Shown: positions 1-22,952 of the stretch, in pieces | Layout: each line of letters begins with the position of its first letter | Numbering within the stretch: the stretch's first letter is position 1 | NCBI GenBank assembly: GCA_021847575.1 | Contig: JAJZQO010000025.1 | Span: 1-33,015, forward strand | Direction: 5' to 3' | DNA length: 33,015 nt | Source of the DNA: Bacillota bacterium | GTDB lineage: Bacteria; Bacillota; Sulfobacillia; JAJZYS01; JAJYTV01 | Position numbers and translations under genes: made by a program | The notes under the pieces: model-generated | The model's input: only the letters and a program-made list of their open reading frames with translations | The model's database searches: none | What the model was told of the DNA's origin: nothing

Positions 1-2
1 TC

Positions 3-533
3 CCAGACCAGGAGCGGGTTCTCTTGGAGCTGCCAGGCGTGGGCCCCGAGACGGCCGCCGCCATCATGGTCTACGCCCTGGGCGAGGCGGCACCGGTCGT
101 GGACGCCTACGCCCTGCGCGTCCTGCGGCGCATCGGCGCAATCAGCTCGGCCGAGCGGCGCAGCGAGGCGAGAGCCTGCATGGCGGGCGCGATCGACGGT
201 GATGCGGCCGTCGCGCGCCTCCTCCACGCGACCATCGTCGAGCTGGCCCGGCGCCACTGCCGCGTGGAGCCGCTGTGCGCAGGCTGCCCCTGCAGGGAAC
301 TCTGCCCGAAAATCCTTGGGCATCCTGCGCAGGGAAGAGGTGATCGTGGTGCCGGGAACGCAGGGAGAGCGGCGGCGGGCCGCGAAGGAGGAAACGCCGG
401 AGCAAACCGCGCTCCGCCTGCTCAAGGAGGCGGTCGCGCAGGAGCTCGGTTTGTGGGACAAGGTACGCCAAGCGGGCTGGGGCAATCTCAGCGCGCGCGA
501 GAGCGGCCGGGTCGGCGGGATCGTGGCGCGTAA
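3..533 (+). CDS. HhH-GPD DNA glycosylase, endonuclease III/MagIII-like (5' partial, possible frameshift at 3' end)
   Basis: C-terminal half of a base-excision-repair glycosylase; the start lies outside the window. Visible are the helix-hairpin-helix LPGVGPETAAAI and the catalytic-Asp strand VVDAYALRVL, followed by a cysteine cluster (C-x5-C-x2-C-x5-C, with one extra Cys) typical of the [4Fe-4S] loop in endonuclease III relatives. In endonuclease III the hairpin carries a Lys (GxGRKTA) used for lyase chemistry; here that place reads GPETA, so a monofunctional glycosylase is more likely. The recognisable domain ends near 311. The frame stays open to 533 and runs antiparallel in sense to nothing but straight through the SASP gene. 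A different frame has a TGA at 341-343, just ahead of the SASP start, so the tail after about 311 is probably not real protein. Confidence 0.72.
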   Translation, partial: PDQERVLLELPGVGPETAAAIMVYALGEAAPVVDAYALRVLRRIGAISSAERRSEARACMAGAIDGDAAVARLLHATIVELARRHCRVEPLCAGCPCRELCPKILGHPAQGRGDRGAGNAGRAAAGREGGNAGANRAPPAQGGGRAGARFVGQGTPSGLGQSQRARERPGRRDRGA

Positions 534-699
534 GATGCGGGAGGGGTCGGTCGGAGGTGCAGAGGGTTCAGGCGGTGCTGTGGACGAAGCGGGAGTGCAG
601 TCTCTGCGACAAGGCGGAGAGTGCCTTGCGGCGGATCGCCAGGGACGTCCCGCTCGACATCGAACTGGCCACGGTGCCGGACGGCAGCCCGCAGGCTGA
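349..699 (+). CDS. Alpha/beta-type small acid-soluble spore protein (SASP)
   Basis: Spore DNA-binding protein that coats and protects DNA in dormant spores. The first 67 or so residues match the family: an acidic helix ending in LLKEAVAQELGLWDKV, then the second helix region with NLSARESGRVGG and VARKMRE, equivalent to the conserved SRxNGSVGGE(I/M)xKR(L/M) block. Starts at GTG 346 or 349 follow a strong extended ribosome binding site (AGAGGTGATC, 335-345). Typical family members are 60-70 residues, so the protein should end near 549, but no in-frame stop occurs until 697-699, well inside the next gene. The upstream glycosylase frame also overlaps it. Third codon positions in this frame are mostly G/C, which supports it as the coding frame for 349-549. 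It is the main evidence that the host makes endospores. Confidence 0.72.
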   Translation: MPGTQGERRRAAKEETPEQTALRLLKEAVAQELGLWDKVRQAGWGNLSARESGRVGGIVARKMREGSVGGAEGSGGAVDEAGVQSLRQGGECLAADRQGRPARHRTGHGAGRQPAG

Positions 700-797
700 G
701 CGCGTGCCGATCGTCGAAATCGGCGGCGTCGAGGTTCAGGCGGGCAAGGTCTCCGAATTCCGTCTGCGCAACTGGCTCAAGGAAAGGGGTTACTCGG

Positions 798-811
<14 letters not shown>
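557..811 (+). CDS. Glutaredoxin-like thioredoxin-fold protein
   Basis: An 84-residue protein with a thioredoxin-like start: strand QAVLWTKRECSLCDKA with a CxxC (Cys14, Cys17) at the head of the first helix, then a second strand (LDIELATV), the cis-Pro-like VPIVEIGG and a C-terminal helix. This matches the short glutaredoxin family (DUF836-like). It probably does thiol-disulfide exchange in the cytoplasm; the partner is unknown. It starts at GTG 557 after GGTCGGTCGGAG. Its end overlaps the aminotransferase start (798) by 14 bases, so the two are probably co-transcribed. The SASP reading frame runs 143 bases into it. Confidence 0.75.
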
Positions 812-1987
<1,176 letters not shown>

Positions 1988-1988
<1 letters not shown>

Positions 1989-3313
1989 TGCTGCCCGACG
2001 TGTTCGCCGGCAGCCGTGTGGCCCTGCTGGGTCTCGGCAGGGCCAATCGCGCCCTTGCCGCGGCCTTGCTGGCGGAGGGCGCGGAGGTGCTCGGCTTCGA
2101 CCGAGACGCGGGCAAGAGCGCATGGCTCGCCGACCTCGGCATCGGCGGGAGCTGCGGGGTGGACTATCTCGCGCAGGCGGCGCGCTCCGGCGCTGCCTAC
2201 GCCTTCCTCACGCCGGGCATGCGCAAGGACCTTCCCGATATCTCCGCTCTCGTGCGCGGCGGCTGCGAGCTGGCGGCGGAGGCGGGCTACTTCTTCGCCC
2301 GCCGCAGGTCGCCCGTCATCGGGATCACGGGTTCGGCCGGCAAGACCACCACGACGACGCTCGTCGCGCGCATGCTGGCACGCGGCGGCGTCGCCGCCAC
2401 AGCGTGCGGCAACATCGGACGCCCATTCGCCGACGCGCTGCAAGATGCGGCGACGACCGAGGTCTACGTCGCGGAACTGTCATCGTTCCAACTGCAGCTG
2501 CTCGACGAGAGCCCCGAGACGGCCGCCGTCCTCAATATCCGGCCCAACCACCTGGACATCCATCCGTCGTTCGAGGACTATGTCCGCAGCAAGTGGCGCA
2601 TCGCACGCTTCCAGGGGCCGGAGGGAATCCTCGTCGTGCCGCCGGATCTGGTCCGCGAGGCGCCGGGCGCGGGCAGACGCCTGACGTTCTCCCTCGACCG
2701 GCCGGCGGACGCCACGCTCGCCGGGGGCCAGCTCGTGCTCCACGGCGAAGGGCTGATGTCGGCCGCCGAGGTGCGCCTGCCGGGGCGTCACAACCTGGAA
2801 AACGCCTTGGCGGCTGCCCTTCTGGCGAGCGCTGGCGGGGCAGGTTTGCGGGAGATCAGGGAGGAGCTCGAGAGTTTCGGGGGCGTGCCGCATCGGCTCG
2901 AGCTCGTCGCCGAGCGCGACGGCGCGCGCTTCGTCAACGATTCGATCGCGACCGCGCCTGACCGCGCAATGGCCGCCTTCGCCGCGCTCGACGGCCCGTT
3001 CCTCTGGCTGGGCGGCGGCTACGACAAGCACCTCGACTACAAGGTGCTCGCCGGCCACCTTGGCCAGGTGCGGCGTGCCTACCTCTTTGGCCCCGTCGGG
3101 CGGCTCCTGCTCGAGGTCTGCAGGATCGACGGCGTGCCGGCGCAGTTCTATCCGGATTTCGCCGCGGCGGTCTTGGCGGCGATGGCCGACGCCAGGGCAG
3201 GGGACACCGTCCTGCTATCGCCCGGCGCGGCGTCGTACGACGCGTTCCGTGACTTCGAGGAGCGCGGCGAGGCGTTCCGCGCGCTTGTCCTGGGCAGATC
3301 CGGCCAAGCCTGA
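1988..3313 (+). CDS. murD: UDP-N-acetylmuramoyl-L-alanine--D-glutamate ligase
   Basis: Cytoplasmic peptidoglycan-precursor enzyme adding D-Glu to UDP-MurNAc-L-Ala with ATP. The 441-residue length is normal for MurD. The N-terminal Rossmann-like domain starts with VALLGLGRANRALA. The central Mur-ligase domain has the P-loop GITGSAGKTTTT near residue 115, then TACGNIG, VAELSSFQL and NIRPNHLDIHPS, the MurD-type substrate and Mg sites. LPGRHNLENALAA introduces the later part, and the C-terminal domain carries VPHRLELVAERDGARFVNDSIATAPDRA and LGGGYDKHLD, both MurD signatures. It begins at the ATG overlapping the aminotransferase stop. It is separated from the usual dcw cell-wall cluster; no other mur genes are nearby. 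Confidence 0.95.
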
Positions 3314-3659: not shown

Positions 3660-4547
3660 CTAAGCCCGCATCTTGCGCAAGAGAGACGCGAACGAAAGCG
3701 ACGCGGGCGACTGGCGGTGCCCTTTGCCGTATGCCAGGAAGAATTGGCGCGGCAAGACCATGTCCCTACCTCTGACCCGCGCGATCAGGCCGGCCCGTTC
3801 TTCCGTCTGGATTGCAAGTTCCGAGACAAAGGCGATCCCACCGCCGGCCACCACTGCCTGCTTGATGGCCTCCGTGTCGTCGAGTTCCCACATGCTGAGG
3901 CCGTCCTTGAGGCCGCACAGTTCGCTGAACGCGTCGACTGCGGCGCGTTCGCAGCCGCCTGCTGGAGGCACGATGAGCCGCTCGCCCAGGAGGGCGCGGG
4001 GCTCCACGCTTGGCCGTCGTGCGAGCGGGTGATTCGGCCTGGCGATGAGCACCAGCCGGTCGCCCATACATGGCTCCAGGAAGAGGTTGCGGGGCACGAC
4101 GGGACCGCTGATCACCGCGAGTTGCACATCGCCGCGGGACACCGCATCTCCGATTTCTTGGACGCTGCCGATCATTAGGTGAAGCGTGACTCGCGGATGC
4201 TCGTTTGCGAACTGCACCATCGCCGGAGCCAGGAGATACCGGGCCGGCGTCGTGGTGGCAGCCAGACGCAACTGTCCAGCCTCAAGGTCTCGCAGTTCCC
4301 CGAGAGCGTCCTTCGCCTCATCCACCTGACGCAGGATATCCTGCGCATAGACGAGGAGACGCTCTCCTGCTTCCGTCAGTTCAGCCGAGCGGCGTCCGCG
4401 TGTGAATAGGGCGATTCCGACGGACGCCTCCAGAGCCTCGATCTGCCGCGACACGGCGGACTGGCTCAGGGAGAGTCTGCGTGCGGCCCCCGAAAAGTTG
4501 CGGCAATCCGCAGCCGCGACGAATGTCTCAAGCTGGTGGAGATCCAA
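3660..4547 (-). CDS. LysR-type transcriptional regulator
   Basis: A 295-residue LTTR of standard length. The N-terminal winged helix-turn-helix is clear: MDLHQLETFVAAADCRNFSG, then ARRLSLSQSAVSRQIEALEASVG and LFTRGRRSAELTEAGE. A linker helix follows, then a periplasmic-binding-protein-like effector domain (LRLAATTTPARYLLAPAM, VQLAVISGPV, GGGIAFVSELA). It is transcribed away from selD with about 135 bases between the start codons, the classic arrangement for an LTTR that controls its divergent neighbour. The effector is unknown; given the downstream genes a sulfur- or selenium-linked signal is a reasonable guess, and several CysB/CysL/CbbR-type members answer to such metabolites. Confidence 0.92.
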   Translation of the reverse strand: MDLHQLETFVAAADCRNFSGAARRLSLSQSAVSRQIEALEASVGIALFTRGRRSAELTEAGERLLVYAQDILRQVDEAKDALGELRDLEAGQLRLAATTTPARYLLAPAMVQFANEHPRVTLHLMIGSVQEIGDAVSRGDVQLAVISGPVVPRNLFLEPCMGDRLVLIARPNHPLARRPSVEPRALLGERLIVPPAGGCERAAVDAFSELCGLKDGLSMWELDDTEAIKQAVVAGGGIAFVSELAIQTEERAGLIARVRGRDMVLPRQFFLAYGKGHRQSPASLSFASLLRKMRA

Positions 4548-4644: not shown

Positions 4645-4683
4645 CTCACCAATTCACCACAGCCGCCGAGGGGGGACCTTCCT

Positions 4684-5730
4684 GTGGGAGTCCTGCCAGA
4701 GATTCGATTGACTTCCTACTCGCCTGGTTCGGGCTGAGCCTGCAAGGTCGGCCCGCACGACCTGGCGCAGGTTCTGCGCCACCTTACGCCTCCCAAGGAC
4801 CCCATGTGGCTTGCGAGCATCGGCGACGATGTGGCAGCGCGCAAATTGACGGACGACCTTGCCATCGTGCAGACGATCGACTACATCACGCCGGTGCTCA
4901 ACGATCCCTATCTCTTCGGTCAGGTGGCCGCCGCCAACGCGCTGAGCGACATCTATGCGGTCGGCGCCCAGCCGTCCTTCGCCCTGAACCTCGTCGGCTT
5001 CCCGGTGCGCAGCCTGCCGCTCGGGTATCTCTCCGAGATCCTTCGCGGTGGAGCGGACAAAGCCCGTGAGGCCGGAGTCGAGATCGTCGGCGGACATACC
5101 GTCGACGATCCAGGACCGAAGTACGGGATGGTCGTCACGGGATTCGCGCACCCGCAGCGTCTGATCCGCAAGTCCGGCGCACAGCCGGGGGATGCGTTGT
5201 TCCTCACGAAGCCGCTGGGGGTCGGTGTGCTCACGACAGCGCTCGACCAGCGCCTCGCCAGCGTGGATCTTGAGGGGCTGGTGTTGCCGGTGATGCTCCA
5301 GCTCAACGCGGCGGCCGCCCGGGCGATCGAGCGCGTCGGCGCTCGCGCCTGTACGGACGTCACTGGATTCGGCCTCCTCGGCCACCTGCATGAGATGGCT
5401 TGGAAGAGCGGCCTCAGCGCGCGTGTACACTTGCCTGCCGTCCCGATTCTCCCGGCTGCGCGGCGCTTTGCAGCGCGCGCCATCTCGACGGGAACGCAGA
5501 ACAATCTGCGCCACTTGCAGCGATGGGTGGACTGGCCCGAAGAGGCGCCAGACGAAGATCGGGTTCTGCTCTCCGATGCCCAGACCTCCGGCGGGCTTGT
5601 GATCGCAGTCGCGACGGAGAAGCGGGATGCGCTGAGGGCCGCCTTGCAAGAGGAAGGGTGCCTCACCTGGGCGGAGATCGGGTGCCTGGAGTCGGGAGGT
5701 GCGGGCCACATCACCGTGCTTGCGCAGTGA
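4684..5730 (+). CDS. selD: Selenide, water dikinase (selenophosphate synthetase), predicted selenoprotein with in-frame UGA
   Basis: Makes selenophosphate from selenide and ATP, the Se donor for Sec-tRNA and seleno-tRNA. From ATG 4804 the protein lacks its catalytic N-terminus. Read upstream in the same frame, the sequence continues perfectly as SelD: LTSYSPGSG, then TGA (4735-4737), then ACKVGPHDLAQVLRHLTPPKDP. The TGA occupies the place of the essential Cys of E. coli SelD (Cys17 before Lys20); here Sec18 is followed by Cys20 and Lys21. GTG 4684 is chosen as start: GAGGGGGGA (4668-4676) lies 7 bases ahead, giving 348 residues, the family length. Further motifs are TDDLAIVQTIDYITPV, ANALSDIYAVGA, EIVGGHTVDDP, DVTGFGLLGHL and SDAQTSGGL. 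It is the first gene of the LysR-linked cluster, 45 bases before the desulfurase gene. Confidence 0.9.
4738..4772 (+). promoter_or_regulatory. Putative bacterial SECIS hairpin of selD
   Basis: Directly after the in-frame TGA (4735-4737) the mRNA can fold into a two-part hairpin. The lower stem is CCTGC (4739-4743) with GCAGG (4767-4771). The upper stem is AGGTCG (4745-4750) with CGACCT (4758-4763), closing a 7-base loop GCCCGCA. Bacterial SECIS elements sit immediately 3' of the UGA inside the coding region and are bound by SelB. Position and size fit; bacterial SECIS sequences are poorly conserved, so this is structural evidence only. Confidence 0.65.
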
Positions 5731-5775: not shown

Positions 5776-6936
5776 ATGGGGGTCCCGATCTACCTCGACT
5801 ACAACGCCACGACTCCTGTGGATCCGCGCGTGCGGGCGGCGATGCTGCCGTTCCTCGGCGACCAGTTCGGCAATCCATCAAGCACCCACGCGTTCGGCCG
5901 CTTCTCTTGGGCCGCGCTGGAGCGTGCCCGTCGTCAGGTCGCGGACCTCCTCGGATGCGCATCGGAGGAAGTCATCTTCACCAGCGGCGGCAGCGAGAGC
6001 GACAACCTCGCGATCCAGGGGGTCGCTTTCGCGAACCGCGCGCGCGGGCGGCACATCGTGACATCGACGGTCGAGCATCCGGCGGTGATCAACACCTGCA
6101 GGTATCTCGCGGAGCAGCACGGGTTCGATGTGACCTATGTCGACGTGGACCATCATGGCCGCGTCGACCCCGCAGCGGTGATCCACGCCATCCGGCCCGA
6201 AACGGTGCTGATCAGCATCATGCAGGCCAACAACGAAACCGGCACGATCCAGCCCATCGCGGAGATCGCCGGCATCGCGCGCGCGGCGGGCGTTGCATTC
6301 CATAGCGACGCCTCCCAGGCGGTCGGCAAGATCCCGACGCGGGTCGCAGACCTGGGCGTCGATCTCCTCACGATCGCCGGCCACAAGCTCTATGCTCCGA
6401 AGGGGATCGGTGCCCTCTACGTGAAAGGAGGCGTCGAACTCCAGCCGATCATCTATGGCGGCGGTCAGGAGCGCGGTCTGCGGGCCGGTACGGAAAACGT
6501 CCCTTACGCGGTGGCCCTCGGCGAGGCCTGCAAGGTGGCAGCGCAGGTCCTGCCGGCGGAGGAGGGGCGCCAGCGCGCGCTTCGTGACCGCTTGCATGAG
6601 ATCCTGGCCGATCAACTCGGCGGGGTGCTCCTGAGCGGCCATCCCCTGGAGCGCCTTCCCAATACGCTCAACCTGAGCTTCCAAGGGGTGATCGGTAGCG
6701 ATCTCCTCGATGAGGTGCCAGAGATTGCCTTCTCTACGGGCTCGGCGTGCCACGCGGGCAGCGCCGCGCCATCGCCGGTGCTCGCACAAATGGGACTCAG
6801 CACGGATGTCGCGCTAGGCGCCGTCCGGCTCAGCATTGGCCGCTACACCACAGAGGCGGAGGTGGACGAGGCCGCACGTCACATATTACGAGGGGTTCGC
6901 AGCTTGCGCCGGCGATCCGAGAGCCCCAGGGAATGA
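5776..6936 (+). CDS. NifS/IscS-like cysteine desulfurase, selD-associated
   Basis: PLP enzyme that strips sulfur (or selenium) from cysteine (or selenocysteine) onto an active-site Cys. A 386-residue group I desulfurase: IYLDYNATTPVDPRV at the N-terminus, TSGGSESDNLAI, STVEHPAVINTC with the PLP-stacking His, NNETGTIQP, SDASQAVGK, and AGHKLYAPKGIGALY with the Schiff-base Lys204. The active-site loop STGSACHAGS holds the catalytic Cys325. The start ATG 5776 follows GGAGG (5764-5768). Lying 45 bases after selD, it could deliver Se to SelD or load the DsrE-like carrier downstream. There is no iscU or thiI neighbour, which argues against a general Fe-S or tRNA role. Confidence 0.88.
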   Translation: MGVPIYLDYNATTPVDPRVRAAMLPFLGDQFGNPSSTHAFGRFSWAALERARRQVADLLGCASEEVIFTSGGSESDNLAIQGVAFANRARGRHIVTSTVEHPAVINTCRYLAEQHGFDVTYVDVDHHGRVDPAAVIHAIRPETVLISIMQANNETGTIQPIAEIAGIARAAGVAFHSDASQAVGKIPTRVADLGVDLLTIAGHKLYAPKGIGALYVKGGVELQPIIYGGGQERGLRAGTENVPYAVALGEACKVAAQVLPAEEGRQRALRDRLHEILADQLGGVLLSGHPLERLPNTLNLSFQGVIGSDLLDEVPEIAFSTGSACHAGSAAPSPVLAQMGLSTDVALGAVRLSIGRYTTEAEVDEAARHILRGVRSLRRRSESPRE

Positions 6937-6967
6937 TGAGGCAGCTGTTCGGAAGGGGGTGATCTGG

Positions 6968-7612
6968 ATGCGCAAAGGCGCGTGGCTCGGAATGGTCATG
7001 CTCGTGGTTGGAGTTGCCGGTCTTACCTTCGCAACGGCCAGGTCACTCCCGTTCTTGCCGCGCGGTAGCCATTTGACCGGATCCGATGCGATGGGCGGGA
7101 TGATGGGGACGTTCCTTTCGGGGGCGCAGGTCCCGCGCATCACGCGCGCCGAGGCGGTGGCGCTTGGCAATGAGGTGCCACTTGGGGCGAGTGCCGATCG
7201 CGGCAGGAACCAACTTGTATTTCGGACGAGCGTGGTTCGCCTGACGATCCTCGCGAGCCCTCCTTGGGGCAAGGACATGACCTTCCGCGTGGCTGGCCTC
7301 ACCAACCCCACGATCGTCGTGCCGCAGGGCGCCCAGGTACGCGTGGAGTTCGTCAACCCCGACAACGACACGAGCCATGGGTGGCTGGTGTCGTCCGCGC
7401 TACCGCCCTTCCGCTACATGGCCATGATGGGTACGCCACCTGCGTTCCCTGGCTCCTTCGCTCCACCGCTCGGGGAGTCTTACGGCGGGGGCATGCCGAG
7501 CGAGACGATTACCTTCCGGGCGAGTGCGTCGGGCCGCTACACCTACCTTTGTCCAGTCCCTGGGCATGCGCAGCGAGGGATGTATGGAGTGTTCGTCGTG
7601 GCCCCTTCGTAG
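6968..7612 (+). CDS. Membrane-anchored/exported cupredoxin, rusticyanin/sulfocyanin-like
   Basis: A 214-residue blue-copper protein. An N-terminal hydrophobic segment (AWLGMVMLVVGVAGLTFA) after a basic start acts as signal peptide or anchor, so the copper domain faces outside. The C-terminal half is the cupredoxin fold: NPTIVVPQGAQVRVEFVNPD, SHGW with the His137 ligand, and TYLCPVPGHAQRGMYG supplying Cys195, His200 and Met205, the spacing C-x4-H-x4-M of type 1 sites. The overall layout resembles rusticyanin. ATG 6968 follows a strong GGGGGTGATC. Its place in the cluster suggests it accepts electrons from a sulfur-oxidising step or passes them to a terminal oxidase; this is inference. Confidence 0.82.
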   Translation: MRKGAWLGMVMLVVGVAGLTFATARSLPFLPRGSHLTGSDAMGGMMGTFLSGAQVPRITRAEAVALGNEVPLGASADRGRNQLVFRTSVVRLTILASPPWGKDMTFRVAGLTNPTIVVPQGAQVRVEFVNPDNDTSHGWLVSSALPPFRYMAMMGTPPAFPGSFAPPLGESYGGGMPSETITFRASASGRYTYLCPVPGHAQRGMYGVFVVAPS

Positions 7613-7678: not shown

Positions 7679-8029
7679 ATGAACGTGCTGCTCATCCTGA
7701 ACGACCCGCCCTACGGCACCGAACGCACCTACAACGGGATGCGCCATGCGATTGCACTCAGCTCGCGTGACGACGTGCAGGTTCGGGTCTTCCTGATGGC
7801 GGATGCCACGCTCTCCGGCAAGAAAGGTCAGAAGGTGCCCAACGGCTACTATTTCCTGGAACGCATGCTGGGTGCCGCCGTCCGGCGTGGAGTGGAGATC
7901 GGCGCTTGCGGCACCTGCCTCGACGCGAGAGGGCTCGCGGAATCCGAGATGATCGAGGGCGTACACCGGAGCTCCATGGAGGAACTGACGGATTGGACGC
8001 TCTGGGCGGACAAGGTCATCGTCTACTAG
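7679..8029 (+). CDS. DsrE/TusD-like sulfur-carrier protein
   Basis: A 116-residue DsrE/F-fold protein: LLILNDPPYGTERTYNGMRHAIAL at the start, VQVRVFLMADA, a flexible middle with LSGKKGQKVPNGYYFLERML, and GVEIGACGTCLDARG containing Cys77 and Cys80. In DsrE/TusD relatives the Cys in this loop carries a persulfide. Family members relay sulfane sulfur between enzymes in the cytoplasm. It sits between the cupredoxin and the SQR-like gene, so it is a likely partner for sulfur (or selenium) released by the desulfurase or the flavoprotein. GAAAGGTGG lies about a dozen bases before ATG 7679. Confidence 0.85.
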   Translation: MNVLLILNDPPYGTERTYNGMRHAIALSSRDDVQVRVFLMADATLSGKKGQKVPNGYYFLERMLGAAVRRGVEIGACGTCLDARGLAESEMIEGVHRSSMEELTDWTLWADKVIVY

Positions 8030-8054: not shown

Positions 8055-9209
8055 ATGTCCGACAAGACGGCTATCGTGCTGGGTGGGGGAGTGGGTGGCG
8101 TCGTTGCGGCAAGCCACCTGCGGCGATTGCTCCCCCAGGAGGATCGCATCGTTGTGATCGAGCGCTCGGGACGCCACGTATTCTGGCCGTCCCTCCTCTG
8201 GCTCATGACCGGCACACGGAAGGTCCAAGATGTTCAGCGCGACATCGCTGCCCTGAAACAGCCGGGCATCGACGTGTTGAAGCGCGAGGTAACGAGGATC
8301 GATCCGGGCACCTGCACCGTATATATGGGTGATGAATCGCTGCAGGGCGACGCGCTTGTCGTTGCGCTTGGGGCGCAGCTCGCGCCCGATCGGATTCCTG
8401 GGCTCAGCGAGGGTGGACACAACTTCTACACGGTGGAAGGGGCGGCGCACCTCTACGAGGATCTTCAGGCCCTGCGCGAAGGGCGTGTTGTCGTCCTGAT
8501 CGCCGGCGTGCCGTTCAAGTGCCCGGCGGCTCCCTACGAGGCCGCCATGCTGATCGATCACCTCCTTAGGAAGCGCGGTGTGCGCGACCGGGTGGAGCTG
8601 GAAGTCTGGGCCGCGGAGCCTGCCCCGATGGGGGTCGCGGGACCGGTTGTTTCACAGGGGGTAACGAATCTGGTCGCCGAGCACGCCATTGGCTACCATC
8701 CGAGCCGGCAGATCTCGAAGGTGGACGCCGCAAAGGGGCGCCTCCATTTTGAGAGCGGGGAAGAGGTCCCCTTCGACGTGTTGGCCGTCGTCCCGCCGCA
8801 TGTGCCCCCGGCCGTCGCGCAGGAAGCCGGGCTCACAGCACCGGGTGGCTGGGTAGAGATCGATCGCGAGTCCTGCGAGACGCGGTTCGAGAATGTCTTT
8901 GCCATCGGGGACGTCACCGGCGTGATGCTCGCCATGGGCAAACCTCTGCCGAAGGCAGGCGTGTTCGCGCACGCGCAGGCGGAGGCCGTCGCAAAGACCA
9001 TTGCAGCCAGATGGTCGGGTAAGGGTGAGGAAGGGCGGTTCTCAGGCAACGGCGAGTGCTTCATCGAGATGGGATCGGGCGTTGCCGGCTTCGCGCGCGG
9101 GAACTTTTATGCGGAACCTGCACCCGAGGTGAAGATGTTCCGCACCGGCCGCCACTGGCATGTCGCAAAGGTGGCGTTCGAGAAGAACTGGTGGCGCAGC
9201 TGGTTTTGA
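8055..9209 (+). CDS. SQR-like FAD-dependent pyridine-nucleotide-disulfide oxidoreductase
   Basis: A 384-residue flavoprotein. The N-terminal FAD-binding GGGVGGVVAASHLRR and the second FAD block FAIGDVTG(V) with KPLPKAGVFAHAQAE are intact. PFKCPAAPYEAAMLIDHLLRKRG carries Cys156, equivalent to the conserved active Cys of sulfide:quinone oxidoreductases; a second Cys335 (NGECFIEMGSG) could be its partner. A third N-terminal Cys used by some SQR types is absent. The C-terminus ends in aromatic residues (NWWRSWF), as in monotopic membrane-attached relatives. The start follows GGAGGG (8042-8047). It probably oxidises sulfide or a persulfide, passing electrons to quinone. Such genes are often found next to dsrE homologues in sulfur oxidisers. 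Confidence 0.83.
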   Translation: MSDKTAIVLGGGVGGVVAASHLRRLLPQEDRIVVIERSGRHVFWPSLLWLMTGTRKVQDVQRDIAALKQPGIDVLKREVTRIDPGTCTVYMGDESLQGDALVVALGAQLAPDRIPGLSEGGHNFYTVEGAAHLYEDLQALREGRVVVLIAGVPFKCPAAPYEAAMLIDHLLRKRGVRDRVELEVWAAEPAPMGVAGPVVSQGVTNLVAEHAIGYHPSRQISKVDAAKGRLHFESGEEVPFDVLAVVPPHVPPAVAQEAGLTAPGGWVEIDRESCETRFENVFAIGDVTGVMLAMGKPLPKAGVFAHAQAEAVAKTIAARWSGKGEEGRFSGNGECFIEMGSGVAGFARGNFYAEPAPEVKMFRTGRHWHVAKVAFEKNWWRSWF

Positions 9210-10288: not shown

Positions 10289-10317
10289 GTGGCACGGCTT
10301 GCGGCACATGATACACT
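10289..10317 (+). promoter_or_regulatory. Possible sigma-A promoter for typA
   Basis: GTGGCA (10289-10294) and TACACT (10312-10317) are spaced by 17 bases and each matches four of six consensus bases. It is the best such pair seen in the gap ahead of typA. Weak evidence. Confidence 0.3.
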
Positions 10318-10436
10318 ACGATAGGCAAGGCGGCCGAAAGGTTCGCCCGCTGACTTTTCTCTTCCGGATATAGGGGGATCTCGCACTGGACCTCAAGGTT
10401 TTTGCATCGGGCGAGTCGGCTGCGCGGCGCACCGAC

Positions 10437-12257
10437 ATGCGCAACATCGCCATCATAGCGCACGTCGACCACGGCAAGACGACGCTCGTCGACGCGATGC
10501 TGCGCCAGAGCGGCGTCTTCCGGGAGAACCAGCAGGTCTCGGAGCGCGTGATGGACCGCAACGAACTCGAGCGCGAGCGCGGCATCACGATCCTGGCGAA
10601 GAACACAGCCGTCGTCTACCACAAGCACACCATCAACATCGTGGACACGCCAGGCCACGCCGACTTCAGCGGCGAGGTGGAGCGCATTCTCAGCATGGTC
10701 GACGGCGCCCTGCTGGTCGTGGACGCTGTCGAGGGCCCGATGCCGCAAACCCGCTACGTCCTGCGCAAGGCGCTCGAGCAGCGCCTGCGTCCGATCGTCT
10801 TCATCAACAAGGTGGACCGCCCCGAAGCGGATCCGGCGGCGGCCCTCGACGGCGTGATCGACCTCTTCATCGCGCTCGGCGCCGGCGAGGAGCAGCTGGA
10901 GTTCCCCGTGCTCTACGGCTCGGGTCGCGCCGGTGTCGCGTCGACCGACCCGTCCCAGCCCGGAGCTGACCTGCGCCCGCTCTTCGAGACGATCCTCGAG
11001 GCCGTGCCGGGGCCCATAGCACTCACCGGGCCGCTGCAGATGCTCGTCTCGTCGCTGGACTACGACGACTACCTGGGCCGCATCGCGCTCGGCAGGATCC
11101 ACCGCGGCGTCCTGCAGCCGGGCCAGTCCGTCCTCGCCCTGCACCGCGACGAGACGCAGACCCAAGGCAAGATCGCGAAACTGTTTGTCTTCCGCGGACT
11201 CGAGCGGGTCGCCGTGGAAGAGGCCGAAGCCGGTCAGATCGTGGCCCTGAGCGGCCTGTCGAACGTCTTCGTGGGTGAGACCATCACCGATCCCGCGGAG
11301 CCAGAGCCGCTTCCTGGGCTCGTCGTGGACGAGCCCACCCTGACGATGACCTTCAGGGTCAACGACTCGCCCTTCTCGGGCCGCGAGGGACGGTACGTCA
11401 CGTCGCGGCACCTGCGCGATCGCCTATGGCGCGAGCTCGAGCGCAACGTGGCCCTGCGCGTCGAGGAGACCGACTCGCCAGACGCGTTCGTCGTCGCGGG
11501 GCGGGGCGAACTGCATCTCTCGATTCTGCTCGAGACCATGCGCCGCGAAGGCTACGAGCTCGCCGTCTCCCGGCCGGAGGTCATCCTGCGGGGCGCCGGC
11601 GACGGCGTCGAGGAGCCCTACGAGGAACTGGTGATCGATGTGCCGGAAGCCCACGTCGGGGCTGTCATGGAGGGGGTCGGACGCCGCCGCGGCGAGCTTG
11701 TCAGCATGGCACCGACCGCCGGCGAGGGGCGGCGCCTGGTGTTCCGCATCCCGTCGCGCGGCCTGATCGGTTACCGCGGCGAATTCCTCACCGCCACGAA
11801 GGGCTACGGCACGATGCACCACGTGTTGCTGGGCTACGCTGCCGCCGGCTCTCCGCCGCCGCGGCGCAACAGGGGCAGCCTCGTCGCCTCGGAGACGGGA
11901 GAGGCCACTTCCTACGCCCTCGACCAGCTGGCCGACCGCGGCACCTTCTTCATCGGTCCGCAGACGCCGGTCTACCGCGGCCAGGTGGTGGGGGAGCACA
12001 CGCGCGAGAAGGACCTGGACCTCAACGTCTGCAAGCGCAAGCACGTCACCAACGTGCGCAACGCCACCGCGGAAGAGGCCATCCGCCTGCAGTCCGCGCG
12101 CATCCTAAGCCTCGAGGACGCCCTCGAGTTCCTCGCGGACGACGAGCTTTTGGAGGTCACGCCGCAGAATCTGCGCCTGCGCAAGGCGGTGCTCGACGCG
12201 GAAGAGCGGCACAAGATCAACAAGGCGCGGCAGAAGGCGGAGGAAGCGCAAGGCTAG
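10437..12257 (+). CDS. typA: Ribosome-associated translational GTPase TypA/BipA
   Basis: A 606-residue GTPase related to EF-G and LepA that acts in ribosome assembly and stress adaptation. The G domain starts at once: [21 protein letters not shown] (P-loop), [15 protein letters not shown] (switch I), [17 protein letters not shown] and [12 protein letters not shown]. Domains II and III follow, with the TypA-specific C-terminal block [38 protein letters not shown] and [15 protein letters not shown], distinguishing it from LepA and EF-G. ATG 10437 has no ribosome binding site, and relatives have several residues before RNIAIIAH. In frame, CTG 10386 lies 8 bases after AGGGGG (10372-10377) and would add 17 residues, so a non-AUG start is possible. 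Confidence 0.95.
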
Positions 12258-12278
12258 ATTCCATTTACTGGCGTTATA

Positions 12279-12309
12279 GGCTACAATTCCTTGCGGAGGG
12301 ATTGTAGCC
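12279..12309. repeat. 31-bp near-perfect palindrome (12-7-12) abutting a recombinase-like gene
   Basis: GGCTACAATTCC (12279-12290) and GGGATTGTAGCC (12298-12309) are inverted repeats matching at 11 of 12 positions around a 7-base centre (TTGCGGA). The outer nine pairs are perfect. The right arm ends at the base before ATG 12310, and the GGAGGG ribosome binding site spans the centre and right arm. Arm and spacer sizes match core sites of tyrosine recombinases. It could equally be an operator or an mRNA hairpin that hides the ribosome binding site; TACAAT (12282-12287) could also serve as a -10. Confidence 0.75.
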
Positions 12310-13122
12310 ATGCTGTTTCTGGACGCAGTCGAGAGATGCCTCGCAACGCTGCAGACGCTGGGCCGCGGGCGGCAGACGATCGCCGCCTACCGCGCCGACC
12401 TCATGCTCTACGGCCGGCACGCGGCCGGGCAATTGCGCCAGCCGCTCGGCGAACTGCTGCTCGAGGAGTGCGCCGCGCTTGGCGTGGACGGCTACCTGCG
12501 GGAACTGCAGGAAGTCCGGCGCAACGCCCCCGCCACGCTGGCCCGCCGTCTCGCCTCGCTGCGCGCGCTCTACGGCGCCACGTGGCGGGAGGCGGGCCTG
12601 CAGGACAACCCCGCGCAAGCCATCGCCTATCCCGGCGGGAAGAGGCGCTCGGTTCCCGCCCTCGACCTGGACGCCGCGCGCTCGCTGGTGCGGGCCGCCG
12701 CCTACCAGAGCCGCACGCCGCTGCGCGACGCCCTGATGCTGACGCTGATGCTGGGCAACGGTCTGAGCCTGGCCGAGCTCGTGCGGCTGGACAGTTGCGA
12801 TGTCGACGTCGCCCGACGGGAGATCGTCGTGAGGGGACGGCGCGGCCGCAAGCGGACGGTCCCGGTCTCGCACGCGACGGCCATCCTGCTCGCACGGCAT
12901 ATCGCAAGCCAGCCCGGGGGACCGCTCTGGTGCAACCGGCAGGGCCGGCGGCTATCGCCGCGGGGCGTCCAGTACGTCTGCCAGCGCGCTTCGCGGCATG
13001 CGCGCGTCGACGGTCACGCCTCGGCGCAGGCCCTCAGGGCCACGGCGAGGCGCTTGATGCGCCGGGCCGGAGCCAGTCCCGCCACACTGCGAGCCCTGCT
13101 CGGCGTCGAGAGTGCGGTATAG
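12310..13122 (+). CDS. Tyrosine-recombinase/integrase-like protein, catalytically degenerate
   Basis: A 270-residue protein with the two-domain layout of XerC/XerD: an N-terminal SAM-like core-binding domain (GRGRQTIAAYRADLMLYGRH, LARRLASLRALYGATWREAG) and a catalytic-like domain (RDALMLTLMLGNGLSLAELVRLDSCDVD). The active-site set is mostly gone: the box I Arg (normally GLR) is Ser153, the hairpin Lys is in an all-Arg stretch (GRRGRKR), the HxxR His is Gln240 (its Arg243 remains), the LLGH His is Val266, and the protein ends at residue 270, before the nucleophilic Tyr. It therefore should bind DNA but not cut it. The start is firm: GGAGGG at 12295-12300. It follows typA by 52 bases and converges on the histidine kinase gene with 6 bases between. 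Confidence 0.8.
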   Translation: MLFLDAVERCLATLQTLGRGRQTIAAYRADLMLYGRHAAGQLRQPLGELLLEECAALGVDGYLRELQEVRRNAPATLARRLASLRALYGATWREAGLQDNPAQAIAYPGGKRRSVPALDLDAARSLVRAAAYQSRTPLRDALMLTLMLGNGLSLAELVRLDSCDVDVARREIVVRGRRGRKRTVPVSHATAILLARHIASQPGGPLWCNRQGRRLSPRGVQYVCQRASRHARVDGHASAQALRATARRLMRRAGASPATLRALLGVESAV

Positions 13123-13128
13123 GGCACT

Positions 13129-14487
13129 CTAGGCGTCGCGTGGCAGGCGGATGGTGGCGGTCGTGCCGCTGCCAGGCGCGGAGCGCAGCGCAAGCGTCGC
13201 CTGAAGCGACTCCGCCAAGGCCTTCGCGATGGGCAGCCCGAGCCCCGTGCCCTTCATGCCCCTGCCGTGCCGGCCGCGGAAGAAGCGTTCCGTCACGAAC
13301 GGCAGCTCGTCCTTGTCGATCCCCGGTCCGGTGTCGCGGACGTAGATTTCGACCGCGTCGGGCAGCAAGGACGCGCCAAGCGTGACGCGGCCGCCTGCCG
13401 GCGTGTAGTGCAGCGCATTCTCGAGCAAGGCCCAATAGGCCCGCGTCAGGATCTGCACGTCCACCCGAACCGTTTGCGCAGAGGGCGGCAGGAGGGTCAC
13501 CTTGAGCTGCGGTGCCAGGGCCTGCGCGTCCTCGCGCAGGCCCTCGAGCCACGGTCCGAGTGCGAGCGGTTCGGGTTCCGGCCGCCGCGTGCGCGCCGAC
13601 TCGAGGGTCAGGAGATCGTTCGTGAGCCCGGTCATGCCGGCCAGGGCCTGCTGCATCGCGCTCAAAGACTCCTGCGCCTCCTGGGCGTCGAGCGTCCCCT
13701 CGGCCAGAAGGGCGGCGTTGCCCTGCATGATCTGGAGCGGTGTGCGCAGCTGGTGCGCCGCCTCCGCGAGCAGCATGCGGTCCCGCTGGCGCTGCAGGTC
13801 CAGATCGGAGATGAGGTTGTTGAGCACGCGGCCGAGGCGCCCGATCTCGTCCTGCGGGTCCGACAGTTCCGGCAGTTTGGCGCCGGCGGGCGAGCGCCTG
13901 AGCTCCATCGCCGCCTCGGTCAGAGCCTCCACCGGCTTGAGCATGCGGCGCGCCGCCACGTAGCCGAACGCGCCGCCGCCGACGGCGGCCGCAAGGCCGA
14001 TCGTCGCGATGCCCAGCAGCAGGTCCTCGACCAGCGAGATGGCGGAGGCGAGTGGGTAGTCGAGCACCACGGCAAGGTTCTGGTGCGTGAGGTCGACCCG
14101 CACGTAGGGAAAACCGTCCGCGAGCGATATGCCGTTGCGCGCTCCCGTCGGCACACGCGATCCCGTGTTCGTGGACTGCAGCACCACCTGGCCGTTGCGG
14201 TAGATCCAGACCTGGGGATCGCTCCGGAGAACGTCGTGTTTCACGGCCTGGACGGTCGCGCTGGTCGGACCACCTGGGCTGAGCGTGTCGAGCACGAGCT
14301 GGGCCGTGCTGAGCGCGTTCGCGCTGACCGTCGTGTACTGATGGATAGCGGTGAAGATCGACACGAGCAAGCTGGCGCCGATGACCATTCCCGCCGTCGC
14401 AAGCCCGGCCTGCGTCGCGAGCCTTCGGCTGAGGCTGCCGAGGCGGCGTTCGCGCAGCTCGCTGGCGGGCGTGGGAGCGGTGCTCAC
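13129..14487 (-). CDS. Sensor histidine kinase (HAMP, HisKA, HATPase)
   Basis: A 452-residue membrane sensor. TM1 lies near residues 28-48 (LATAGMVIGASLLVSIFTAI), an extracellular region follows, and TM2 near 155-175 (LLLGIATIGLAAAVGGGAFGYV). A HAMP-like linker (RRMLKPVEALTEAAMELRR) leads to the HisKA box AEAAHQLRTPLQ with phospho-acceptor His245. The ATPase domain shows the N box (LENALHYTPAGG), G1 (DTGPGID), F box (ERFFRG) and G2 (GTGLGLPIAKA). It starts at GTG 14487, overlapping the regulator stop by 4 bases (GTGA), so the pair is co-translated. The signal is unknown. Confidence 0.93.
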   Translation of the reverse strand: MSTAPTPASELRERRLGSLSRRLATQAGLATAGMVIGASLLVSIFTAIHQYTTVSANALSTAQLVLDTLSPGGPTSATVQAVKHDVLRSDPQVWIYRNGQVVLQSTNTGSRVPTGARNGISLADGFPYVRVDLTHQNLAVVLDYPLASAISLVEDLLLGIATIGLAAAVGGGAFGYVAARRMLKPVEALTEAAMELRRSPAGAKLPELSDPQDEIGRLGRVLNNLISDLDLQRQRDRMLLAEAAHQLRTPLQIMQGNAALLAEGTLDAQEAQESLSAMQQALAGMTGLTNDLLTLESARTRRPEPEPLALGPWLEGLREDAQALAPQLKVTLLPPSAQTVRVDVQILTRAYWALLENALHYTPAGGRVTLGASLLPDAVEIYVRDTGPGIDKDELPFVTERFFRGRHGRGMKGTGLGLPIAKALAESLQATLALRSAPGSGTTATIRLPRDA

Positions 14488-15215
14488 TCGGCCTGGGCCT
14501 CCGCCACACCGTGGTCGTCCTGTGCGCGCAGCCGGTAGCCCACGCCGCGCACCGTCTCGATGAGCTTCGGCGCCCCGACGGCCGTCAGCTTCTGGCGCAG
14601 GTAGCCGATGTAGACATCGACGATATTGCTCTGTCCGCCGTAATGAAAGCCCCAGACGCGCTCGAGCAGCATATCGCGCGTCAGGACGGTCTCCTGGTTC
14701 AGCGCAAGACAGCGCAGCAGTTCGAACTCCCGGCGTGTCAGGCTCAGCAGCTCACCCTGGAAGCTCACCTCCCAGCGCAGCGTGTCGACGTGGAGCTGGC
14801 CGACGTCCAGCACGGCCTGGGCACGCTCGTGTTCGCCCTGATGGCCGCTGCGGCGCAGCAGGGCGCGCAGGCGGGCCACGAGCTCCGCTGGCGCGAACGG
14901 CTTGACAAGGTAGTCGTCTGCGCCGGCGTCGAGGCCCTCCACACGTTCGGGCAGGCTGCCGCGCGCCGTAAGCATGAGGATCGGGATATCAGACAGGGCG
15001 CGCAGGGCCCGGCAGACCTCGAGCCCGTCGATGTCGGGCAGGGTGAGGTCGAGGATGACTGCGTCGTACTGGCCCTGCGCCGCCTCGGTGAGGCCCGCGC
15101 GTCCGGTCGGCTGATGCGCGACCGTGAACCCGGCGTGGCGCATCTCGATGGTGACGAGACGCGCTACGGCGGGGTCGTCCTCGATCAGGAGAAGATTCGG
15201 CTCTGGCTGTTGCAT
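14484..15215 (-). CDS. OmpR/PhoB-family response regulator
   Basis: A 243-residue regulator. The receiver domain begins LLLIEDDPAVARLV, with phosphorylation Asp56 in VILDLTLPDIDG, the switch Thr in MLTARG and Lys in LVKPFAP. The C-terminal winged-helix domain has SLTRREFELLRCLALNQETVLTRDMLLERVWG, SNIVDVYIGYLRQKL and IETVRGVGYRL, typical of OmpR/PhoB. It is cognate to the overlapping kinase. Its ribosome binding site (AGGAACGGTGA on the minus strand) falls in the last codons of iscB, 7 bases upstream, so the IscB element has landed at its translation start region and probably replaced its native leader. Confidence 0.95.
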   Translation of the reverse strand: MQQPEPNLLLIEDDPAVARLVTIEMRHAGFTVAHQPTGRAGLTEAAQGQYDAVILDLTLPDIDGLEVCRALRALSDIPILMLTARGSLPERVEGLDAGADDYLVKPFAPAELVARLRALLRRSGHQGEHERAQAVLDVGQLHVDTLRWEVSFQGELLSLTRREFELLRCLALNQETVLTRDMLLERVWGFHYGGQSNIVDVYIGYLRQKLTAVGAPKLIETVRGVGYRLRAQDDHGVAEAQAE

Positions 15216-15222
15216 GGCTAAG

Positions 15223-16668
15223 TCACCGTTCCTTAGCCCCGGATGCCCCCGGCTTCAGCCGTGGGGAGGCAGGGGCGTACTCGAAACCATCTGCGAGGTG
15301 AATGAGGTTGCAATGCCGCCACGAGATGCCGTCCGCGCTGCCGACGCGGAACGAGCCGGCGGCGCGCACCCCGACGCGGCCGACGTGCAGTCCCACGTAC
15401 TTCCCTTTTGGCACCTCCGCCCGTACCAGGTCCCCAGTCCGAAAACCGAAGAACCGCTTTGCGCGCGGCGCATGGCGAATCGGAAAGCCGTGCCGGTCGG
15501 TGCCGCACCTCTGGCGCTTGCCGTGTCCTGTCGCCTTGATCTGCAACGCGGGCCCGGCATCCACCCTCAGTCCCGCCGGTGTCGACACCCCAACGCAGGC
15601 CGCGTCCAACCAATGCTCCTTCGGCAGGCCGAACCGTGTTCGGTTGAACTTGGTCAGGCCACCGCTACCGGCCTCGACGGGCAGGCCGATCTGAGAGAGC
15701 CGCCGCCAGAGCGCCCAGCGCGTCGCGTTGACCGCCGCCGCGTCCTTGAGCGGTGCCTTCGCCTGCGCCCGCACCCTGCCGCAGTTGGTGACGCGGACGA
15801 CATCGATCTCCTTCTGGCAGTCTTTGAGCGTCTGAGCCCATTCCTCCGGCGTGCGCCTGCCCTTCGCCTGGTTGCAGGTGTCGCAGGCGATCGCCAGGTT
15901 GGGCAAGCGATTGGTGCCGCCACGACTCTTCGGTGTCAAGTGCTCGACCTCGAGCACCGGATCTTGGGAGAGCCCGCCGCAGTAGGCACAAGTGTGACCG
16001 AACTTCAGGAGGAGGTACTCCTTCACCTCGTAGCCCGCGCGTTCGCCCTGCTGGTACTCGACGCCATGGATCTCGGAATTCTCGATCTTCTGCAGGTCGA
16101 AGCGCACCATCTCCGCCGAGATCGCCGCGACGGGCGCCAGGCGGCTCAGTCGTTTCGCCCAGGTCTCCACATTGGCCACCCTGCTCTCCAGCGACGGTGG
16201 CAGGCGGCGAGGCGGCGCCAACACCTCCGGGCGCTGACTCGCGTGCAGCCGGCAGGTTTTGTGCCCGTGCCGGGCGTTTCCGCCGCAAACGATGCAGGGT
16301 GCCGGATGCCTGTTCAAGAATCGGGGTGCCCGGTACCGGGCGTGCCGGAACCGGCGGCCCCGGCGCAGCGCCGCGCGGGCTACCATGCGGAGGTGGATTT
16401 GCTGGCCACGATGTTCGATCTCCGCGCCCCAGACGACGGTCGCCGTGCTTTCGTCCAGGATGGCAACACCTGTCATGCGGCTACCCGGATCGAGTTTGAC
16501 ACGGTGAGGATGGACGATGGAGTTCGCGACCTCACGATCCTTGAGGACGATCGTGAACGGCTGGTGGCAGAACACCGCCGCACGGCCCACCTTCAGCAGA
16601 TGGCGGGCCCGTGCTGGATGGCAGGGATCTAGTGGTTGCCGGTTCTTGTCCAGAACGAAGACTCGCAT
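15223..16668 (-). CDS. iscB: IscB, RNA-guided RuvC/HNH nuclease of the IS200/IS605 superfamily
   Basis: A 481-residue IscB, the ancestor-type relative of Cas9. In order: a PLMP-like start (QPLDPCHPARARHLLKVGRA), RuvC-I with Asp60 (VKLDPGSRMTGVAI), an Arg-rich bridge helix (RRGRRFRHARYRAPRFLNR), a zinc-like CIVCGG, RuvC-II with Glu186 (AISAEMVRFD), the HNH domain (CAYCGG, VEHLTPKSRGGTNR with His243, CDTCNQAKG) and RuvC-III with Asp355 (KEHWLDAACVG). All catalytic residues are present, so it looks active. The C-terminus (PRLKPGA) is encoded by the right-end repeat. ATG 16668 follows AGGAGG 8 bases upstream. No Y1 transposase is in the window, so mobility would depend on one elsewhere. Confidence 0.94.
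   Translation of the reverse strand: MRVFVLDKNRQPLDPCHPARARHLLKVGRAAVFCHQPFTIVLKDREVANSIVHPHRVKLDPGSRMTGVAILDESTATVVWGAEIEHRGQQIHLRMVARAALRRGRRFRHARYRAPRFLNRHPAPCIVCGGNARHGHKTCRLHASQRPEVLAPPRRLPPSLESRVANVETWAKRLSRLAPVAAISAEMVRFDLQKIENSEIHGVEYQQGERAGYEVKEYLLLKFGHTCAYCGGLSQDPVLEVEHLTPKSRGGTNRLPNLAIACDTCNQAKGRRTPEEWAQTLKDCQKEIDVVRVTNCGRVRAQAKAPLKDAAAVNATRWALWRRLSQIGLPVEAGSGGLTKFNRTRFGLPKEHWLDAACVGVSTPAGLRVDAGPALQIKATGHGKRQRCGTDRHGFPIRHAPRAKRFFGFRTGDLVRAEVPKGKYVGLHVGRVGVRAAGSFRVGSADGISWRHCNLIHLADGFEYAPASPRLKPGASGAKER
15245..15266 (-). repeat. IscB element right-end repeat
   Basis: A 22-base sequence with the imperfect hairpin CCCCCGGCTTCAGCCGTGGGG, here encoding the last residues of IscB. It matches the left-end copy at 16904-16925 in the same orientation with one mismatch. 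Such subterminal hairpins mark the ends of IS200/IS605-type elements. The true cleavage site should lie within a few dozen bases, near the response-regulator start. Confidence 0.65.
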
Positions 16669-16930
16669 TGAAACGGCCTCCTTACGGAGACAACTCGGCT
16701 TTCGCCGGTAAAGTGAGCCTCGCCGATGTTATCCGGGCTTGTCGTGTCCAGGACGCTGGCTTCGACCCCGTACGCCTGTTTGACCCTGGACGACAGAGCG
16801 GCAGGCTGGCTCGCGCACCCGCCGGTGTCGTAACCCGGATAACGTAGCCCGATGGTCCGAAGACCCTGGCTGGGGCTGGTCAACCCCGGACTTGCCTCAG
16901 CCGGCCCCCGGCTTTAGCCGTGGGGTGGTT
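16669..16930 (-). ncRNA. Putative omegaRNA scaffold of IscB
   Basis: IscB guide RNAs are transcribed from the region just upstream of iscB. This stretch has no gene but strong pairing: CCCGGATAAC (16834-16843) with GTTATCCGGG (16728-16737), a perfect 10-base long-range stem; GTCCAGG with CCTGGAC near 16746-16790; and a small CTCC-loop-GGAG hairpin (16678-16689) that also contains the iscB ribosome binding site. The guide would come from the flank beyond the left-end repeat, at about 16926-16950. Boundaries are approximate. Confidence 0.6.
16904..16925 (-). repeat. IscB element left-end repeat
   Basis: Second copy of the 22-base end repeat (core CCCCCGGCTTTAGCCGTGGGG), differing at one base from 15245-15266. 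It sits about 240 bases upstream of the iscB start, at the expected 5' edge of the element and of the omegaRNA scaffold. Confidence 0.65.
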
Positions 16931-17044
16931 GACTCCCCTGGGCGCAGCGTCAGCGGTGGCCGAGTGTACGGTTCGCGGCCCAGGGCGGCTCTCCCTGCGT
17001 GTCCGCGGCAGGCGTTGACGGCAGCAGAGGGGAATACCACCACC

Positions 17045-20231: not shown

Positions 20232-20456
20232 ATGCACGAGCTAACGGTGCGGTGCACGATCGACAACTGCCACTACTGGGGGCAGGGCAACGTCTGCGAT
20301 GCGCGCGAGATTCTGATCACGAGCGACCAGGTCGGCGGCAGGTACCCCCAACACATCGACACGCAGCAGCTCTCGACGATCCTCGAGGAGGTCGGGGAAA
20401 CGCCGGCGAGCCGCTGCGAGGAGACCTGCTGCAAGACGTTCAAGGCCAAGCGCTAG
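20232..20456 (+). CDS. DUF1540-domain protein
   Basis: A 74-residue Cys-rich protein: VRCTIDNCHYWGQGNVCDAREILI matches DUF1540 (Cys8, Cys13, Cys22), followed by a spacer and RCEETCCKTF. Such proteins are common in spore-forming Bacillota; metal binding is presumed and the function is unknown. GGGAGGG lies about 10 bases before ATG 20232. Its stop overlaps the metX stop tail to tail in a shared CTAG. Confidence 0.85.
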   Translation: MHELTVRCTIDNCHYWGQGNVCDAREILITSDQVGGRYPQHIDTQQLSTILEEVGETPASRCEETCCKTFKAKR

Positions 20457-21499
20457 AAGGCGGCGCGGTTGCGCGGCGCGATTCCGGCGGCCCCGCCTGC
20501 GGGCGGGGCCGCTTGCGCCTGTGCGAGGAGCGTGCCCAGGATGCCCGCGAGGGCGTTCTGCTCCGCGAGGAACGCGTCGTGCCCCATCTCCGTCTCGAGC
20601 CGCGCCAGGCCACCGGGCACCCCGAGCATGCGCAAGGCCGAGTTCAGGGAGTTGACCGACTGTTCGGGGAAGAGCCAGTCGCGCTCGATCGAGACGAGAT
20701 CGATCCGCGTGTCCCGCCCGACCGAGAGATCCCAGGCGAAGTTCGCCATGGCGCGGCTGAGGAGCAGGTAGCTCCAGGCGGAGAACCGTTCGGCCAGGCG
20801 GTCGCCGTGATGGTCCAGGTAGCTCTCCACCGCGAAGCGGCGGCGACCGGCCGGAGCCGGGTTCCGGCCGAACCTCGCTTCGAAGTGGGGTTCGGAGCGG
20901 TAGGTGGCCATCGCGACGGCGCGCGCCGCCCGGAGGCCGCCTGCCGCGTCGCCGTGGGCGAGGCCGAGCTCGAGCGCGACGTGCTGCGCGTGGCAGAGAG
21001 CCACCTGCAGCGCAGGCAATCGGTCGGCGGCGCCGATCGCGATGGCGTGGCGGACGGGAAGCGTGTCCTGGCCTGACCAGGCGAGGGCCTGGAGCCCGCC
21101 GAGCGAGCCGCCGATGACGAGCGCCACGCGCTCGACGCCGAGTTGCACGAGGACGCGGCGCTGCGCCTCGACCATGTCGTCCACCGTGATCTCGGGGAAG
21201 GGGCGCCCGTCCGGCAGGAGCCCGTTCGGGTCAGGGCCCGTGCTGCCGTAGCAGCTGCCGATGACGTTCATCGCCACGACAAAACTGCGGTCCGTGTCGA
21301 TGACCTTGCCGGGGCCGACGATCTCCCGCCACCAGCCTTGGGCAGGGCCCCAGTCGGCGGGGTGCTGGTCGCCTGTGAGCGCATGGCAGATTAGCACTGC
21401 CTCGGGTCCTCTCTGGCCCCAGGTCTGGTAGGCGACGCCGGCGTCCGTGAGGCGCCCGCCGCGCGCAAGCGGCAGGTCGCCGATCGCTGCGCGCGGCAT
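20453..21499 (-). CDS. metX: Homoserine O-acetyltransferase
   Basis: A 348-residue alpha/beta-hydrolase acyltransferase that activates homoserine for methionine synthesis. Visible: VLICHALTGDQH (oxyanion side), FVVAMNVIGSCYGSTGPDP, the family marker; VALVIGGSLGGLQALAW with the nucleophilic Ser; the Asp in IERDWLFPEQ; and the His in ETEMGHDAFLAE, completing the triad. Start at ATG 21499 overlaps the metY stop by one base (TGATG), so the two are translated from one SAM-riboswitch-controlled mRNA. The C-terminal tail (AQAAPPAGGAAG) is encoded by a GC hairpin. Confidence 0.93.
   Translation of the reverse strand: MPRAAIGDLPLARGGRLTDAGVAYQTWGQRGPEAVLICHALTGDQHPADWGPAQGWWREIVGPGKVIDTDRSFVVAMNVIGSCYGSTGPDPNGLLPDGRPFPEITVDDMVEAQRRVLVQLGVERVALVIGGSLGGLQALAWSGQDTLPVRHAIAIGAADRLPALQVALCHAQHVALELGLAHGDAAGGLRAARAVAMATYRSEPHFEARFGRNPAPAGRRRFAVESYLDHHGDRLAERFSAWSYLLLSRAMANFAWDLSVGRDTRIDLVSIERDWLFPEQSVNSLNSALRMLGVPGGLARLETEMGHDAFLAEQNALAGILGTLLAQAQAAPPAGGAAGIAPRNRAAF
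20487..20512. terminator. GC-rich hairpin inside the 3' end of metX, possible terminator for the DUF1540 gene
   Basis: GCGGCCCCGCC (20487-20497) pairs perfectly with GGCGGGGCCGC (20502-20512) across a 4-base loop, 31 bases after the DUF1540 stop. On the + strand it is followed by only two T. It lies in coding sequence of metX on the other strand. Confidence 0.35.
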
Positions 21500-22831: not shown

Positions 22832-22844
22832 TGTTCGCTGACCC

Positions 22845-22952
22845 TCTTATCTCTCAACCCGGAGCTCCCGGGTTGCAGGAATTGGCACCGACGGCGCGTA
22901 GCGCCCGGTTGCCGGGTTTCATTGGGCCAGTCCCTCCACCTCTCGCGATAAC
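22845..22952 (-). ncRNA. SAM-I (S-box) riboswitch
   Basis: The minus strand carries the S-box consensus in order: TTATCGCGAGAGGTGGAGGG (5' P1 side and start of P2), ACTGGCCCAATGAAACCCGGCA, GGTGCCAATTCC and a closing GAGAGATAAG whose GATAA pairs with TTATC to form P1. These are the conserved core bases of SAM-I aptamers. It is followed by the intrinsic terminator and metY. High SAM should switch metY-metX off. Confidence 0.95.

Follow-up and report, generated by a model that had tools for sequence, protein, structure and literature searches.

Genes and features at the locus

The window, by which we mean the whole analysed stretch of 33,015 nucleotides, carries a gene for selenide, water dikinase (selD) that is preceded by a divergent LysR regulator gene and followed by genes for a cysteine desulfurase, a cupredoxin, a DsrE-family protein and a sulfide:quinone reductase (SQR)-like protein (Table 1).

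Table 1. Positions, strands and supporting evidence for selD and its surroundings in the window
Feature	Position	Strand	Evidence and remarks
LysR regulator, divergent	3660..4547	-	NF040786 182.5 bits, below cut-off 250; closest to selenium-associated LysR family
Ribosome binding site GAGGGGGG	4668..4675	+	Shine-Dalgarno-like, 8 nt before GTG 4684; from sequence
selD, selenide water dikinase	4684..5730	+	348 residues, predicted selenocysteine at residue 18, GTG start; TIGR00476 350.9 bits; single internal TGA; constraint from GTG
TGA read as selenocysteine, catalytic Cys/Sec position	4735..4737	+	aligned with Cys of 3u0o; TGA in 52/53 SelD matches
Predicted SECIS hairpin	4763..4781	+	8-bp stem, apical loop GUU 4771-4773, 33 nt after UGA; -13.4 kcal/mol alone; covariation
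NifS/IscS-type cysteine desulfurase, probable selenium or sulfur donor	5776..6936	+	TIGR03402 466 bits, cut-off 530.75; adjoins selD in G006 and G008
Cupredoxin, rusticyanin-like C-terminal domain	6836..7612	+	TIGR03095 81 bits, below cut-off; mechanical ORF, conserved from ~6929
DsrE-family protein	7679..8029	+	PF02635 78.7 bits, cut-off 22.7
FAD sulfide:quinone reductase-like protein	8055..9209	+	NF049943 227.8 bits (below cut-off), PF07992 84.8 bits
Island-holding segment	3294..10288		~1.5-1.6 kb instead in same-genus G001, G002 and G005; collinear flanks 1-3293 and 10289-15209

The selD frame runs through a TGA at the catalytic position

A mechanical ATG-to-stop reading of selD gives an open reading frame of 308 amino acids, from ATG 4804 to 5730. 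An earlier sequence-only reading had proposed that the gene starts further upstream, at GTG 4684, behind a good ribosome binding site, and continues through a TGA that encodes selenocysteine (Sec). GTG 4684, the TGA at 4735-4737 and ATG 4804 do lie in one frame at the coordinates given there, and the ribosome binding site was found, ending 8 nt upstream of the GTG. The TGA is the codon of residue 18 and the stop codon of the gene is at 5728-5730; with the TGA taken as Sec, the product reads MGVLPEIRLTSYSPGSG-U-ACKVGPHDL.... The earlier reading expected automated annotation to truncate the gene, although some annotation pipelines recognise known selenoprotein families; a plain ORF caller removes 40 residues, and the reading given here sets the start and the active site of selD right.

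The read-through protein scored 350.9 bits against the SelD profile TIGR00476 (cut-off 125) and matched profile positions 1-310 of 311, from residue 8 onward. Its alignment with E. coli SelD (3u0o) was continuous over residues 6-326 (E 4.7e-71) and placed U18 under the Cys of SYSHGAGC-GCK, so that GSG-U-ACK of the window stands against GAG-C-GCK. The Cys/Sec position of the N-terminal glycine-rich loop is thus filled by the predicted Sec, which is followed by the conserved Lys. The aligned residue is Cys17 of E. coli SelD (numbered by counting along the printed alignment), a residue that is essential there. The comparison of the residues around the TGA with SelD proteins, which had been proposed as a check, therefore came out in favour of the TGA lying at the essential Cys/Sec position, with the family match beginning at residue 8 and U18 on the catalytic Cys.

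Coding constraint and conservation of the TGA

We compared codons 4684-4803 of the window with those of two relatives whose SelD proteins are 90% and 87% identical to the window copy. Here 8 and 9 changes were synonymous and 3 and 2 were non-synonymous, mostly at third positions, whereas the 30 codons before GTG 4684 were unalignable (28/30 and 29/30 differed in the two relatives). As change is synonymous-biased from the GTG onward and shows no such bias upstream, coding appears to start at GTG 4684 and to cross the TGA, and judging from these substitutions the reading through the TGA is not a chance frame. The earlier statement that the frame is family-consistent on both sides of the TGA thus agrees with both the profile score and the pattern of change. 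The same codons bear on the possibility that the TGA is a true stop, and selD either a decaying pseudogene or the gene of a real N-terminally truncated protein from ATG 4804. Although an open frame of 308 amino acids does begin at that ATG, the codons upstream of it are under protein constraint (8-9 synonymous versus 2-3 non-synonymous changes), and the shortened form would have no catalytic Cys/Sec loop, as the sequence-only reading had also argued when it said that this start loses the active site. We consider either version of a terminating TGA extremely improbable.

The codon was then surveyed in 61 genomes (the genome of the window and 60 relatives), counting SelD matches of at least 220 bits (n = 53). 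Exactly one in-frame stop, a TGA, was present in 52/53 matches; the remaining match had no in-frame stop, carried TGT (Cys) and came from a genome that also holds a Sec-SelD. Over all loci examined, 71 had TGA at the Sec site and 14 had TGC/TGT; some genes appear twice in this count, and a few rows beyond the close relatives (e.g. L090) depend on a loosely matched motif. The genome with the TGT match is G032, in which a Sec-SelD (TGA) and a Cys-SelD (TGT) occur together (loci L037 and L106), and the Cys copy is without a SECIS hairpin. Sec-SelD is thus the usual form in this lineage, which is an addition to those already known.

The TGA might instead be a sequencing or assembly error for TGC or TGT in an ordinary Cys-SelD, as the assembly is fragmented into 137 contigs, of which the window is one, and related bacteria do have Cys-SelD. 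However, 51 other SelD matches, from separately assembled genomes, have this TGA as well, and it is accompanied by a covarying hairpin and by decoding genes (see below). This conservation refutes an error in practice, leaving it with next to no probability, and the codon at 4735-4737 can be read as TGA, as had been claimed, rather than as TGC/TGT.

A predicted SECIS hairpin downstream of the UGA

Downstream of the UGA, the RNA is predicted to form the hairpin UGGCGCAG-GUU-CUGCGCCA at 4763-4781. It agrees with the rules for bacterial SECIS elements given in PMC13188914, with a 3-nt loop that has G first and then U, a stem of 8 bp, a distance of 33 nt from the UGA and a folding energy of -13.4 kcal/mol. 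In an alignment of 38 UGA regions, the helix was paired in 81.6% of cells, compared to 70.6% in shuffled alignments. Double-changed cells numbered 24 as against 6.5 in the shuffles, and 0 of 500 shuffles reached this value, which is not to be read as a probability because the shuffles break the relatedness of the sequences. Controls in which the pairing partner was slid by 1-3 columns keep the relatedness, and there pairing was only 29-52%. The putative SECIS hairpin thus covaries across relatives. RNAalifold, when applied to all 38 divergent UGA regions, gave no consensus structure, because the position of the hairpin differs between lineages.

Two other structures were considered and set aside. 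The minimum-energy fold that starts at the UGA, which is favoured when folding begins there, was rejected as the SECIS element because its pairs are much less kept across relatives and because it includes bases that would be covered by the ribosome. Many relatives keep a second short hairpin (alignment columns 16-28), but the register of the window differs there. The SelD genes linked to selA are without the window-type hairpin; the one in G006 has GGUCCAGC-GGA-GCUGGACC instead, ~20 nt from its UGA. This ~20-nt-spaced hairpin of selA-linked Sec-SelD was seen at L099 (G006:C69) and L108 (G007:C40), as against the spacing of 33 nt in the window.

Selenocysteine decoding genes in the same genome

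The sequence-only reading had called for selA, selB and tRNA-Sec elsewhere in the genome (2.86 Mb, 137 contigs, 99.4% complete). The two whose absence had been named as a refutation were found: one clear copy of tRNA-Sec with the anticodon UCA (68.7 bits, cut-off 47) and SelB (327 bits, cut-off 242). SelA was recovered only over its ~88 N-terminal residues (model positions 1-88), as contig C28 breaks off within the gene. C28 runs collinear with a locus of same-genus genomes where selA is complete and the selA-selD pair intact. The missing part of selA probably falls into an assembly gap, and a second selD is likely to follow it there, as it does in those relatives.

The genome also encodes a formate dehydrogenase with one in-frame TGA (motif RT-U-HAPSVAGL), its second UGA selenoprotein gene. 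The alpha subunit with the TGA at the Sec site is L118 (G000:C51:20424-22295), and a match to the N-terminal 53 model positions of formate dehydrogenase stands apart from it at C51:17840-18004, also with a TGA.

UGA is known to be read as Trp or Gly in some bacteria, and a reassigned code or a suppressor could make it a sense codon other than Sec here too. Yet tRNA-Sec and SelB are encoded in the genome, the UGA lies exactly on the Cys/Sec site, and other long frames that were checked, e.g. those of SelB and TypA, are open without any TGA being read; the chance of a reassigned code or a suppressor seems negligible. Taken together, the frame, the constraint across the UGA, the conservation of the UGA, the covarying SECIS hairpin and the decoding genes support the Sec reading, and on this sequence evidence the gene almost certainly encodes a selenocysteine-containing selenophosphate synthetase.

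For this selenoprotein we propose the following scheme. Ribosomes would start at GTG 4684, and at UGA 4735-4737 SelB, bound to the hairpin at 4763-4781, would bring Sec-tRNA-Sec, so that residue 18, within the N-terminal catalytic loop, would become Sec and translation would end at 5730. SelD would then convert ATP and selenide, or persulfide-bound selenium, to selenophosphate; the adjacent NifS could plausibly hand persulfide-bound selenium to it. As SelA would take the selenophosphate to form Sec-tRNA, SelD would itself be a product of the pathway that it feeds.

The selD island and its surroundings

In the window, selD lies in a 7.0-kb selenium/sulfur island between murD and typA, which is absent from this site in G001, G002 and G005. 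G006 and G008 share the neighbours LysR, SelD, NifS, DsrE and SQR-like protein, and G008 also has the cupredoxin; in G006 the island and TypA are on different contigs. The G+C content of the island is ~64-67%, compared to ~68-72% in most flanking kilobases. A laterally acquired accessory element would fit these observations best. The contig is the host's own: its TypA is 91-92% identical to that of the same genus and 82-84% to that of the next genus, which rules out misbinning. We also asked whether the TGA that closes the SQR-like ORF (9207-9209) might encode Sec, and take it to be an ordinary stop.

Elsewhere in the window, an IscB gene (15223-16668, minus strand) and a HEARO/omega RNA (16708-16933, minus strand) form a clean insertion: G001 and G002 have ~50 nt where the window has 15210-16965. 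A MetX homoserine acyltransferase-like gene (20453-21967) has a SAM riboswitch (22844-22954, minus strand) upstream, separated from it by other sequence.

A clade of SelD paralogues

A tree was built from 78 SelD proteins, and in it the window copy grouped with six others in a fully supported clade (100/100), whose seven members come from G000, G006, G008, G053, G047, G050 and G030. A second Sec-SelD, placed elsewhere in the tree, is present in six of the seven genomes. G001, G002, G004 and G005, which are of the same genus as the window genome, encode the selA-linked type and lack the island type. Between genera, the island SelD proteins are 87-90% identical, compared to 78-82% for the selA-linked ones. 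The closest named genomes are Bacillota MAGs. By its place in the tree, the window SelD is a member of a distinct clade, and genomes with such a copy mostly have another Sec-SelD as well.

One could go further and suppose that this is an undescribed clade of second Sec-SelD paralogues, which spreads among related bacteria together with a LysR-NifS-cupredoxin-DsrE-SQR island and supplies a selenophosphate pool apart from that of the housekeeping selA-selD pair; we regard this larger proposal as rather unlikely. A literature search for duplicated selD gave nothing relevant, a result that proves little. Two Sec-SelD paralogues per genome, whose SECIS hairpins differ in their spacing from the UGA, and with one paralogue on an accessory island, would make a modest, testable case of why bacteria keep two, and the paralogue clade and the island are the only parts that may be of specialist interest.

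Comparison with known systems

Sec occurs in 19% of the SelD genes of a prokaryotic reference set, always at the one N-terminal position (Mariotti et al. 2015, PMC4561486). The window gene is of the same Sec-SelD/SPS2 family (TIGR00476; PMC4561486), with Sec predicted at the single conserved N-terminal position and a bacterial-type SECIS hairpin after the UGA. It differs from that family in nothing essential, apart from belonging to a subclade with a second Sec-SelD in 6/7 genomes. E. coli SelD (3u0o) is homologous over residues 6-326, but has Cys where the window has the predicted Sec. NifS-like enzymes as selenium donors, as well as NifS-SelD fusions, have been described (PMC4561486); Geobacter sp. 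FRC-32 likewise links a NifS-like enzyme to a Sec-SelD, although there the two are fused, whereas in the window nifS stands on its own, directly after selD. LysR_Se regulators are found beside selenium genes (PMC5322559), and the LysR protein beside the window selD is most similar to this selenium-associated family, although its 182.5 bits are below the curated cut-off of 250 bits. Sec-containing SelD is thus a long-known family, to which the selD of the window adds an example that is ordinary in kind.
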